From: Microbacterium endophyticum
GTDB taxonomy: Bacteria; Actinomycetota; Actinomycetes; Actinomycetales; Microbacteriaceae
Direction: 5' to 3'
Assembly: GCF_011047135.1 (NCBI RefSeq)
Contig: NZ_CP049255.1
Location: 2,666,001-2,730,000, forward strand
Length of the DNA: 64,000 nucleotides
The position numbers and the translations under genes are program-made. The notes below the pieces were generated by a model. The model made no database searches. It saw only the letters and a program-made list of their open reading frames with translations, and had not been told where the DNA came from. Below are positions 42,490 to 45,857 of the stretch, piece after piece. Position 1 is the stretch's first letter, and each line of letters opens with the position of its first letter.

Positions 42490-43392
42490 TCATCGAGCTC
42501 GCCAGCCGGCTGATTTCAGCGCTCGAGCTGTCACTGCGACGATCTCGGGCGGCAGCATCCGTTTGGTGATTCGAATCGTGACCCAGCCGACCGCGCTTAG
42601 GTCGTTGTACCTGCGTAGGTCCTTTGCCCACTGCGCATCGTCGTAGAGGTGCTGCTCACCTTCGTACTCGAGAACGACCCGCCAGCGCCGCCACACGAGA
42701 TCGCCGTGTACAACACTCCCGTTCGCGAGAGCGATCGGGGCGTTCAGCGACGGATAAGGAAGACCGCACCGAGTTATCGCGAGTCGAGTGAGGGTTTCGC
42801 GAGGCGATCGCGATCCAGCTCGTATTTCGTCGAATGCCAGGCGCGCGTTCCGGATGCCGCGAGCACCTGTGTTCGCACGTATGGAATCGTCCATCGCGTC
42901 TCGCGTCGCGAGCTCTCCTTGCCACTGGAGTAGCCGGTCGCCCGCCACTATCAGTTCGTCGACGCTAAGACACCGGCCGAGCATGAGCCAGGTGTCGATG
43001 GCGGAGGTGACGTTCAGCCCCGACACACGCTCCGGTATCAGTCGCTTCAAAGTCTTGTGGCCAACGATCCCCCGACCGCGAGGCGCGCGGCCGCCACCAA
43101 GGTGCAGCACATGCAGATCGGTGCCGCGCTCCAACCATCCCGGCATGGGAAAGCCCCATATTTTCGCGGCCGTCGCGTGCGCAAAGACGAGTTCGGCTGC
43201 GGGGCGAGACGCATATGCGCGGGCGAGTTCCAGGTCGTCCAGATGCGCGGATGCTGGTGCTCGCACACCATGGAACGGGGCATGCAGATCGCGGCGGCGC
43301 AGACGCTGCTCCGGGATACCGTTTGCCACAGCATCCGCCACGGAAAAGCTTCGGTGCTGCCACGCGGCCGGTAGCGGTTGCGCTGTTCTCAT
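42490..43392 (-). CDS. AbiEi-like/DUF559 fusion protein (putative nuclease)
   Basis: This 300-residue protein has a basic, probably winged-helix N-terminus (SVADAVANGIPEQRLRRRDL near residue 20, then HAPFHGVRAP), a middle region like AbiEi-type antitoxins, and a C-terminal DUF559 domain of the PD-(D/E)XK fold near residues 220-300, with LVWRRWRVVLEYEGEQHLYD holding the likely metal-binding aspartate and glutamates (GDLVW, LEYEG) and ending TIRITKRM. There is no adjacent AbiEii toxin gene. The ATG at 43392 is the first in frame that fits the family; the frame runs on through repeats to 43536. A 20-bp inverted repeat lies 112-179 bp upstream. A decayed relative is at 13140-13457. Confidence 0.8.
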   Translation of the reverse strand: MRTAQPLPAAWQHRSFSVADAVANGIPEQRLRRRDLHAPFHGVRAPASAHLDDLELARAYASRPAAELVFAHATAAKIWGFPMPGWLERGTDLHVLHLGGGRAPRGRGIVGHKTLKRLIPERVSGLNVTSAIDTWLMLGRCLSVDELIVAGDRLLQWQGELATRDAMDDSIRANTGARGIRNARLAFDEIRAGSRSPRETLTRLAITRCGLPYPSLNAPIALANGSVVHGDLVWRRWRVVLEYEGEQHLYDDAQWAKDLRRYNDLSAVGWVTIRITKRMLPPEIVAVTARALKSAGWRAR

Positions 43393-43503
43393 CGCACAAG
43401 AGTCAGCCGACGCATCCGTGCCGGCTCGTTTACGACGGAACAGGTGCACAACCCCTGTTCCTGCCCAGGTGTGCAGAAATTCCCGCGCGCCATCAGCTGC
43501 CGC

Positions 43504-43571
43504 CGAAGGGTCGCAACACGCCGTACTCCGCGACATCGGCGCGATGCATTGCGGCGTGTTGCGACCCTTCG
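43504..43571. repeat. 20-bp perfect inverted repeat upstream of the DUF559 gene
   Basis: CGAAGGGTCGCAACACGCCG (43504-43523) and its exact complement CGGCGTGTTGCGACCCTTCG (43552-43571) are separated by 28 nt. A 40-bp perfect pairing is far beyond an ordinary terminator and there is no T-run. No gene lies between 43393 and 43646, so this repeat and the leucine leader promoter are the only structures seen there. Confidence 0.85.
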
Positions 43572-43634
43572 AGGGCTCGGCGAGTGCATACGGACGGAGT
43601 GCGGCGGCCGCGAGGGGGAGGCGGTAGCTGGTGG

Positions 43635-43640
43635 TAACCT
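43635..43640 (+). promoter_or_regulatory. -10 box of the leu leader transcript
   Basis: TAACCT lies 6 nt before the GTG of the candidate leader peptide, the same arrangement as at many genes here. Confidence 0.5.
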
Positions 43641-43646
43641 CGTGGG

Positions 43647-43691
43647 GTGTGGATCGCTCGCCTTCTCCTTAGCGGCCGCGACGAGGCCTAA
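43647..43691 (+). CDS. Candidate leucine leader peptide (attenuator ORF)
   Basis: A 14-codon frame with GTG start encodes [14 protein letters not shown] and ends at TAA. Three successive leucine codons (CTT CTC CTT, 43662-43670) stand 66 codons' worth of sequence before leuC, which makes a leucine-sensing leader plausible. The segment TTCTCCT inside these codons (43663-43669) is exactly complementary to AGGAGAA at 43743-43749, the leuC ribosome-binding region. A stalled ribosome would cover the complementary segment and leave the leuC site open. The start is 6 nt from a TAACCT box and has no ribosome-binding site. The structure is inferred and no transcript is shown. Confidence 0.6.
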
Positions 43692-43713
43692 CCCCAGGCC
43701 ATCCTCGTCGCGG
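43676..43713 (+). promoter_or_regulatory. Leader stem between the leu leader ORF and leuC
   Basis: CCGCGACGAGG (43676-43686) pairs perfectly with CCTCGTCGCGG (43703-43713). A second copy of GTCGCGG at 43719-43725 offers an alternative partner for CCGCGAC, and GGCCT/AGGCC (43685-43699) can form a competing inner stem. No T-run follows, so control of leuC translation is more likely than intrinsic termination. Confidence 0.55.
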
Positions 43714-43756
43714 AGTCTGTCGCGGGCTTGATCCTCTGTCCCAGGAGAACGACGCA

Positions 43757-45244
43757 ATGAGCACACCTATCCCTGACGAAACCGTCATTCCGGAACGCCC
43801 CCGTACCCTCGCTGAAAAAGTGTGGGACGACCACTTGGTGGTCAAAGGTGAAAACGGCGAGCCGGACATCATCTACATCGATCTGCACCTCGTGCATGAG
43901 GTTACGAGCCCGCAGGCGTTCGATGGCCTTCGCGCGGAAGGTCGGCCACTTCGGCGCGTCGACCTGACGATCGCGACGGAAGATCACAACACTCCGACGC
44001 TCGCGATCGACAAACCGATCGCCGACCTCACTTCGCGCACGCAAATCGAGACGCTCCGCCGTAACGCGGAGGAGTTCGGTGTACGTCTGCATTCGCTGGG
44101 CGATAAAGAGCAGGGAATCGTGCACGTTGTCGGGCCGCAGCTCGGACTCACCATGCCCGGTGTCACCGTGGTCTGCGGAGACAGCCATACCAGCACTCAT
44201 GGCGCGTTCGGAGCTATGGCGTTCGGTATCGGCACGAGCGAAGTCGAACATGTCATGGCGACTCAGACGCTTCCGCTCACACCGTTCAAGACAATGGCGA
44301 TCACCGTTGAGGGCGATCTGAAGGCTGGTGTGACGGCGAAAGACATCATTCTCGCTGTCATCGCAAAAATCGGCACAAACGGCGGCCAGGGCTACGTGCT
44401 CGAATTCCGCGGTAGCGCCGTTCGTGCGCTCTCGATGGAGGGCCGTATGACGATGTGCAACATGTCGATCGAGGCCGGTGCGCGCGCCGGAATGGTCGCT
44501 CCCGACGAGACGACATTTGAATACGTGAAGGGTCGCGACCACGCTCCGCAAGGACAAGACTGGGAGGATGCCGTCAGCTACTGGCGAACTCTTCCATCCG
44601 ATGAGGGCGCCGTATATGACGCCGAAGTCTTCCTTGATGCCAACGAGCTCGAACCGTTCGTCACCTGGGGAACAAACCCCGGTCAGGGTGTGTCGCTCAG
44701 CGATGTCGTGCCCTCACCTGACGACTTTAGCGACCCCAACGATCGCGTTGCCGCAGAGCGTGCCCTGGAGTACATGGCGCTCACGCCTGGCGTTCCGCTG
44801 AAAGAGGTGCCCGTTGACGCGGTCTTCATGGGCTCATGCACAAACAGTCGCATCGAAGACCTTCGCGCTTTCGCTTCGATTATTGCGGGGCGCAAGAAGG
44901 CTGATGGCGTTCGCGTCATGGTCGTGCCTGGCTCTGCCCGTGTCCGCCTAGAGGCAGAGGCTGAAGGCCTCGATAAGCTCTTCATCGAATTCGGCGCAGA
45001 GTGGCGTTTCGCCGGATGCTCGATGTGCCTCGGTATGAATCCGGACCAGCTGGCTCCGGGGGAGCGATGCGCCTCGACGAGTAACCGCAACTTCGAAGGC
45101 AGACAGGGTAAAGGTGGGCGTACTCACCTTGTGTCACCGCTCGTAGCTGCAGCTACAGCGGTGCGAGGCACACTTTCGAGCCCGAGCGATCTTGAAGAAC
45201 TTGACGCCGCCACAGCGGCGCAGACAACGGCGGAGGTGCGCTGA
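43757..45244 (+). CDS. leuC: 3-isopropylmalate dehydratase large subunit
   Basis: LeuC, with LeuD, isomerises 2-isopropylmalate to 3-isopropylmalate. The 495-residue aconitase-family subunit has the [4Fe-4S] cysteines in GSCTNSR near residue 358 and [12 protein letters not shown] near 421, plus [13 protein letters not shown] near 142. The ATG is preceded by CCAGGAG with 9 nt spacing. Expression is probably under the leucine leader described upstream. leuD follows after 1 nt. Confidence 0.96.
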
Positions 45245-45245
45245 G

Positions 45246-45857
45246 ATGGACAAGTTTTCTACTCACACCGGAATCGCAGCGCCGATGCGACGCTCATCGG
45301 TCGACACCGATCAGATCATCCCTGCGGTGTATTTGAAGCGAGTGACGAAGACCGGGTTCGACGACGCTCTCTTTGCGAACTGGCGTCAGGACCCCGATTT
45401 TCTCCTCAACCAAGAGGCGTACAAAAACGCTTCGGTTCTGATCGCTGGACCAGACTTCGGCACCGGCTCAAGCCGCGAGCATGCGGTATGGGCGCTACGG
45501 GATTACGGATTTCGGGTTGTACTCAGCCCGAAGTTCGCCGACATCTTCCGCGGAAACGCGGGCAAGCAAGGGCTCCTCACCGGGATTATCACCGAGGCAG
45601 ACCTCGAAGCACTGTGGGCGTCCATCGAGTCGGACCCCTCAACACCGATGACCGTTGACCTCGAAACGCGGATTGCTGAACATGGCAACCTCCGCGTCGC
45701 TTTCGAGATCGATGATTACACTAGGTGGCGGCTCCTTGAGGGGCTCGACGACATCGGGCTTACCCTTCGGAACGAAGACAAGATCGCCGCCTACGAAGCG
45801 CGACGCGAATCCTGGAGGCCCCGCACCTTACCGGTGCCGCCGCTTCCCATACAGTGA
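45246..45857 (+). CDS. leuD: 3-isopropylmalate dehydratase small subunit
   Basis: LeuD is the swivelling small subunit of the isomerase. The 203-residue protein has [21 protein letters not shown] (near residues 6-26, read in part), the [17 protein letters not shown] loop near 71 and [24 protein letters not shown] near 89 (in parts). The ATG at 45246 is 1 nt after the leuC stop; the longer frame from 45192 lies inside leuC. The pair leuCD is followed by murA after 13 bp, so leucine and cell-wall genes may share a transcript. Confidence 0.96.

Follow-up and report, generated by a model that had tools for sequence, protein, structure and literature searches.

The LEU element was described upstream of leuA in Actinobacteria by Seliverstov et al. 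in 2005 (PMC1262725). In this element, Leu codons of a leader peptide pair with the Shine-Dalgarno (SD) sequence of the leucine gene, and the structure comprises this base stem and a pseudoknot. The same paper argues against a direct riboswitch on the grounds that conserved unpaired positions are absent. Its authors thought a bound protein the likely ligand and pointed to a helicase-domain protein, represented by the orthologues of ML1624, as the regulator. Leader mutations in S. coelicolor (Craster 1999, as cited in PMC1262725) are a misfit to classical attenuation. The mechanism was left open in 2005, and no later paper settling it was found in the literature searched; in the relevant part of PMC8164766, the element receives a single passing mention.

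Two other leaders are comparable to the one analysed here. The leuL1 leader of S. lividans (MRFGLLLLSCRGEGL), which is transcribed leaderless according to the relevant text of PMC8079986, and leuL of C. glutamicum (PMC4046766, PMC8709942) are likewise short, Leu-rich leaders located before a leucine gene. Moreover, leuL1 is without a typical terminator (PMC8079986), so that it resembles our element in this respect as well as in the leaderless start that is proposed for ours. Unlike our element, both leaders are located at leuA and are treated as attenuators, and SD sequestration does not appear in the relevant text of these papers. For leuCD, PMC4340878 reports in its relevant part that NdgR and its orthologues adjoin these genes and regulate them in other Actinobacteria. 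These IclR-type regulators (NdgR, LtbR and AreB) thus regulate, and adjoin, the same gene that the RNA element described below precedes, but they are DNA-binding proteins.

We analysed a window of 64,000 nt from Microbacterium endophyticum, the genome of which is a 2.9-Mb single contig. Its LeuC is closest to Microbacterium among 80 named loci (91% to M. ureisolvens). In the window, leuC is followed directly by leuD and then by a murA homologue. An earlier note on this DNA had claimed a TAACCT box, an open reading frame of 14 codons, a run of Leu codons, the complementary segments TTCTCCT and AGGAGAA, an 11-bp stem and duplicated GTCGCGG arms before leuC. We checked every coordinate claimed for the leader region against the window sequence; all were correct, and all of these features are present. 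They are arranged as follows:

43635..43640, + strand: -10-like box TAACCT, 6 nt 5' of the leader start codon, from which a leaderless transcript would be expected
43647..43691, + strand: leader peptide open reading frame, with a GTG start (M) at 43647-43649, 14 codons and a TAA stop
43662..43670, + strand: Leu codon run CTT CTC CTT
43663-43669, + strand: anti-SD TTCTCCT inside the Leu codon run, 5' strand of the base stem
43676..43686, + strand: 5' arm of the P1 hairpin, CCGCGACGAGG
43686..43689, + strand: 5' strand GCCT of the inner hairpin, with the partner AGGC at 43696-43699; a competitor of the pseudoknot
43695..43700, + strand: pseudoknot strand CAGGCC, in the P1 loop
43703..43713, + strand: 3' arm of the P1 hairpin, CCTCGTCGCGG
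43719..43725, + strand: second GTCGCGG arm, present but not a conserved part
43725..43730, + strand: pseudoknot partner GGCTTG, downstream of P1
43743..43749, + strand: leuC SD region AGGAGAA, 3' strand of the base stem
43757..45244, + strand: leuC, 3-isopropylmalate dehydratase large subunit, with ATG at 43757 (TIGR00170, 743.9 bits; cut-off 560.25)
45246..45857, + strand: leuD, 3-isopropylmalate dehydratase small subunit, with a putative start codon (TIGR00171, 184.5 bits; cut-off 116.25)

The codons of the leader are GTG TGG ATC GCT CGC CTT CTC CTT AGC GGC CGC GAC GAG GCC TAA. The segments TTCTCCT (43663-43669) and AGGAGAA (43743-43749) are perfect 7-bp complements, and the leader stop codon (43689-43691) shares one base with the 5' strand of the inner hairpin.

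Several features of the LEU element were found in the window: three consecutive leucines (LLL), a 7-bp base stem in the predicted minimum-energy fold and the pseudoknot CAGGCC/GGCTTG. As in PMC1262725, a leader with a Leu run is thus combined with a base stem joining this run to the SD and with a pseudoknot; the pseudoknot strands and the inner loop helix of the window may correspond to the published pseudoknot and hairpin. The location differs, since PMC1262725 names leuA and one transposase gene, whereas the window copy precedes leuC instead of leuA. Its counterpart in the same genome, with the leader MCFGGLLLLSCRDESSI, precedes leuA. We took location as part of the description and not of the definition, because the published set itself includes the copy in a transposase gene. 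Judged by homology and structure, the window element is classified as a LEU element, and the leuC leader is a copy of this known kind, which probably senses leucine. The earlier note had stated that no example was described in exactly this form; this has to be corrected, as the same architecture was published at leuA in 2005 (PMC1262725). No description of a LEU element or of a leader peptide at leuC was found in the literature searched, with subscription papers mostly outside it. What is new here is the leuC copy of the LEU element and its link to the absence of an IclR-type regulator beside leuC.

The covariance models built in this work gave two strong matches in the window genome, at leuC and leuA respectively (its LeuA was identified by NCBIfam), while the next best match had an E-value of 0.09. 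The two leader regions align at 71% mean column identity, and the leuA leader MCFGGLLLLSCRDESSI is close to leuL1 of S. lividans (MRFGLLLLSCRGEGL). That one cell holds two LEU copies, each before a different gene, offers a natural comparison for the mechanism of the element. Rfam 15 covariance models yielded no match near the gathering score in the window or in ten LEU-element loci, and a known Rfam family was rejected as the identity of the element. Our alignment yields a covariance model for an element without an Rfam 15 match.

In a single sequence, the complementarity between leader and SD proves little. Between the leader ORF and the segment reaching from P1 to the leuC start, 467 of 5000 mononucleotide shuffles also produced a 7-nt complement, as did 344 out of 3000 random positions in the window; the rate in these controls is 9-11%. 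Stop-bounded stretches with an ORF of 8-30 aa holding LLL numbered 2 + 2 in the 64 kb, on both strands. The pairing exceeds chance because of its conservation and covariation in relatives, which we assessed in a set of elements assembled by requiring a P1 stem with 9 of 10 pairs or more in the 420 nt preceding the homologous start. This stem was found in 97 leuC, 116 leuA and 2 leuB entries, and not found in 58 leuC and 9 leuA entries. After removing identical sequences and those too near the locus end, the final set comprised 181 elements. The swap tests described below used leuC and leuA elements, without the two from leuB. The Herbiconiux element (L041) lies beyond the 420-nt limit and is missing from the leader, pairing, codon and folding counts. 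Between the end of this Herbiconiux daphne element (L041:757-837) and the conserved part of leuC lie about 660 nt, and the gene has a long open N-terminal extension.

The Leu codons proved to be conserved, as the earlier note had proposed to check: at least three consecutive Leu codons were present in 65 out of 69 leuC and 108 out of 110 leuA elements, and the remaining four leuC leaders have two in a row. Leader starts were chosen among in-frame starts with a TANNNT box 4-9 nt upstream. Of the 69 leuC elements, 55 have a gap of 6 nt between box and start, 12 one of 7 nt and 2 one of 5 nt; spacings of 4, 8 or 9 nt were not seen, although the selection allowed them. Among the 109 leuA elements with a leader, the gap was 6 or 7 nt in 102. 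The codon composition of the runs is also distinctive. In leuC leader runs, CTT accounts for 62%, CTC for 32% and CTG for 6% of the Leu codons (n=223), compared with 3%, 50% and 44%, respectively, in leuC genes (n=2582). CTT is thus about twenty times commoner in the leader runs than in the genes, a contrast that is weaker in the window, where leuC itself uses CTT for 10 of its 38 Leu codons. This choice of codons fits pairing with the SD, because CTG would interrupt the pairing with a purine-rich sequence. An alternative cause would be the sensing of a particular leucine tRNA.

In P1, 99.2% of 750 cells were paired, a value that is partly high by construction because the elements were collected by this stem. 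Cells changed on both sides numbered 31, against 10.0 in shuffles, and pairs with double changes numbered 3, against 2.1 (40/500 shuffles). The inner loop helix was found in 65 out of 69 leuC elements, compared with 538 of 1380 loop shuffles, and it shares bases with the pseudoknot strand in all 65 elements having both. The duplicated GTCGCGG arm, offered by the earlier note as the basis of an alternative structure, did not hold up: only 17 of the 69 leuC elements and 1 of the 110 leuA elements have the duplicate, and the alternative stem was rejected. The conserved competing structures are instead the pseudoknot and the inner hairpin.

Covariation was evaluated with swap tests, in which each leader (or loop) was paired with its own SD (or downstream strand) and with those of other elements. 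The mean energy of the base stem was -9.90 for own and -9.35 for swapped leuC pairs (17/5000 permutations as good), and -10.05 and -8.81, respectively, for leuA (0/5000). The helix score of the leuC base stem, in a set with less than 85% identity (n=48), was reached in 1/5000 permutations, compared with 2716/5000 for a control region. When redundancy among the leuC elements was reduced furthest, the base stem lost significance in the energy test (456/5000 for n=31 and 839/5000 for n=22) but kept it in the helix score (29/5000 and 28/5000, respectively). For leuA, own pairs were favoured over swapped ones even in a control region (9/5000, n=85), indicating that part of the leuA pairing signal is relatedness. 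For the leuC leader of the window genome, the leuA SD is a stronger partner (-12.5) than the leuC SD (-10.7); the leuA leader prefers its own SD.

For the pseudoknot, the helix score gave 0/5000 for leuA (n=85) and 8/5000 for leuC (n=48), weakening for leuC to 119/5000 (n=31) and 347/5000 (n=22). The corresponding energy test gave 0/5000 for leuA and 251/5000 for leuC, or 481/5000 with duplicates removed. The strands pair despite very different sequences, such as TCGGCCA/TGGCCGA, CTCGGCC/GGCCGAG and GTCAGCCA/TGGCTGAC. The covariation between the Leu run and the leuC SD that the earlier note had called for was therefore recovered in part: it stands by the helix score and by the energies of the full set, but the energy test fails in the smallest leuC sets. 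As judged from these alignments, the leader and SD strands co-vary, as do the pseudoknot strands, with a signal that fades in the smallest leuC sets.

Next to these pairings, we looked for transcription terminators. No terminator-like site was found in window positions 43000-44000. A run of at least five T between P1 and the start was present in none of the 69 leuC elements and in 3 out of 110 leuA elements; a looser count (five T in eight) gave 7/69 and 33/110, respectively. An intrinsic terminator, and with it a classical transcription attenuator, was rejected at leuC, where no hairpin followed by a U-run was found. Given the pairing of the Leu run with the SD and the lack of an intrinsic terminator in these searches, a translation-level switch is the natural reading. 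The earlier note had arrived at the same reading, which gains from the conserved Leu leader behind a -10-like box and predicts a response to leucine.

When folded without pseudoknots, the minimum-energy structure of the window leader consists of the base stem, P1 and the inner hairpin. The predicted mean unpaired probability of the SD is 0.15 in the free RNA. It increases to 0.47 if the leader is masked as far as P1, as by a ribosome stalled over the Leu run, and is 0.16 if the ribosome sits at the stop codon. In the same kind of folding, the stalled state raises SD accessibility in 56 of the 69 leuC and 95 of the 109 leuA elements. The mean predicted change for leuC is moderate, from 0.38 to 0.51, with the pseudoknot left out.

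We consider it fairly likely that a duplicate of the leuA leader, placed before leuCD, encodes a leaderless leader peptide, and that stalling on its Leu codons, which are also the anti-SD, frees the leuC SD. This explanation draws on the conservation and covariation described above, on the homology to the leuA leader, on the terminator searches and on the absence of the regulator described below. Transcription would start at or beside the leader GTG, as suggested by the spacing of the box, and the leader would be translated leaderless. With sufficient leucyl-tRNA, the ribosome would pass the three Leu codons and terminate at the UAA in the loop of P1. The segment of Leu codons could then pair with the leuC SD across the P1 hairpin and pseudoknot, keeping leuC translation low. 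When leucine is short, the ribosome would stall on the Leu codons and cover them, leaving the leuC site free and leuCD translated. A ribosome terminating at the stop codon, which shares a base with the 5' strand of the inner hairpin, might tip the balance from this hairpin towards the pseudoknot. Stalling on codons that double as the anti-SD would be the simplest reading of all the features. In erm-type translational attenuators, stalling on a leader peptide likewise frees a sequestered downstream ribosome-binding site, but there the hairpins re-pair and the signal is an antibiotic, whereas in the present model the sequestering strand would consist of the very codons on which the ribosome stalls, and the signal would be an amino acid. 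Because the Leu codons and the anti-SD are the same nucleotides, codon mutants would disturb sensor and lock together. It is possible that this coupling explains the puzzling S. coelicolor leuA leader mutants, as they are cited in PMC1262725.

The proposal of a protein ligand leads to a different reading of the same RNA, in which the leader ORF is incidental and a regulator, bound to pseudoknot and base stem, keeps ribosomes off the leuC site. The compact pseudoknotted fold and its conserved stem would suit such a target, and this is how the authors of PMC1262725 read the S. coelicolor mutants and the phylogenetic patterns. An RNA that serves only as a binding target needs no leader ORF, however, so the in-frame Leu codons, the start and the -10-like box at near-fixed spacing, found in leuC and leuA elements alike, count against it, and we regard this reading as unlikely. 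The leader could also act on transcription, its coupled translation setting the balance between read-through and premature termination, which would be Rho-dependent for want of a U-run. There are precedents: PMC1262725 predicted leader-peptide attenuation of the trp and ilvB operons in Actinobacteria, leuA leaders are classed as attenuators, including that of S. lividans without a typical terminator (relevant text of PMC8079986), and C. glutamicum leuA is said to be controlled in this way (PMC8709942, relevant part). Yet neither a terminator-like site in 43000-44000 nor a run of at least five T in any of the 69 leuC elements was found, and the SD is itself one strand of the conserved, co-varying pairing, which makes control of transcription quite improbable at leuC.

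The leuC leader is known here from sequence alone, which would also accommodate a conserved RNA and leader ORF with no role in regulation, such as a 5' stabiliser or an enhancer of leaderless translation. The identifiable genes behind strong matches are leuA, leuB or leuC, however, and the conserved Leu codons, with CTT roughly twentyfold enriched in leuC leader runs over genes, are not what such a role would suggest; we give it very little credence. The stalling mechanism thus remains our preferred reading of the element.

The distribution of the element was examined at several taxonomic levels. A LEU element stands directly before leuC in 35 out of 35 Microbacterium genomes, and leuA lies behind another element in 33 of them (tblastn). 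In the two exceptions, either the contig ends (G023) or only the leuC element was found in a genome that is 77% complete (G030). In other families of the order, none of the 22 genomes with leuC (23 searched) had an element before it at an E-value of 0.01 or better; searches over more than 40 genomes use stricter filters, with which weak matches are lost. The element precedes leuA in 16 of these 23 genomes, and in two of them (G035 and G051) also leuB. The other seven comprise five without a match, one in which the contig ends (G046) and one whose match precedes neither gene (G045). This weak match (L195, E 0.0018) and another (L208 in G004, E 0.0012), both in or beside long open frames and before neither leuA nor leuC, were rejected. 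Among the 80 named leuC loci, 23 have the element, all of them within the 34 Microbacteriaceae loci; with a broader model (R2), none of the other 57 gave a match below E = 0.1. Microbacteriaceae loci without a leuC element include those of Curtobacterium, Frigoribacterium, Agrococcus and Salinibacterium.

At least one element was detected in 147 out of 149 Microbacteriaceae genomes and, at the class level, in 183 out of 196. All ten single-match Microbacteriaceae genomes examined have the element at leuA. We examined 50 class-level loci, consisting of the best matches and hand-chosen others rather than a random draw: 38 precede leuA, 6 leuC (all Microbacteriaceae) and 5 leuB, and 1 was unassignable. 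In two other genomes (L212 and L230), the leader peptide at leuC has exactly the sequence of leaders located at leuA, as would be expected after duplication. The leuC element most likely arose as a duplicate of the leuA leader. When mapped on a tree of LeuC from 76 of the 80 named loci, element presence requires five changes, and the leuC copy may have had a single origin followed by losses.

In Actinobacteria of other families, an IclR-type gene is a frequent divergent neighbour of leuC. The neighbourhood of leuC was searched for this regulator using the divergent leuC neighbour of an Arthrobacter locus (L069) as query, with matches accepted at an E-value of 1e-30 or better. By its place and its IclR-type matches, the query is a putative NdgR/LtbR orthologue. 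A match was obtained in all 23 other-family genomes, and in all 22 with leuC it is divergent and next to this gene. At the same threshold, no match was obtained in the 35 Microbacterium genomes, nor in any of the 149 Microbacteriaceae genomes, for which up to 18 candidates per genome were scored with the 23 other-family genomes as positive controls. Among the named loci, the regulator is beside leuC in 44 of the 57 without the element and in none of the 23 with it. Eleven Microbacteriaceae named loci without a leuC element are also without the regulator beside leuC, so that its absence looks family-wide, whereas the leuC element appears in many, not all, lineages of the family. This complementary pattern matters because an RNA leader seems to replace a DNA-binding regulator of the same gene. 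The order and cause of events, regulator loss or element gain, can be proposed only tentatively. With a confidence just short of even, we suggest that ancestral or early Microbacteriaceae lost the leuCD regulator and that a copy of the leuA leader took over as a leaderless translational switch with sensor codons that double as the anti-SD, the LEU RNA forming a spreading leucine regulon that, in other families, would include leuB and a second leuA.

LEU elements before leuB occur in several other families (L188, L192, L313, L331, L333, L343 and L346). Read by eye, their leaders (e.g. MRSVFVLIDCRGEA in L331) are mixtures of Val, Ile and Leu with no Leu run, and these elements may differ in what they sense and perhaps lack SD sequestration. 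LEU-like elements were also seen at divergent leuA genes, about 50-56% identical to LeuA of the window genome (L179, L180, L185, L186, L187, L261-L264, L321, L337, L339, L342 and L348), several of which are second copies beside a closer leuA.

Upstream of leuC, the window contains a divergent ORF (42490-43536, - strand, 348 aa), which has no NCBIfam match and differs from the IclR-type regulator seen at this place in other families. A perfect 20-bp inverted repeat (CGAAGGGTCGCAACACGCCG and its complement) lies upstream of the leuC leader, at 43504-43523 and 43552-43571, with its first arm within the 5' end of this divergent ORF.
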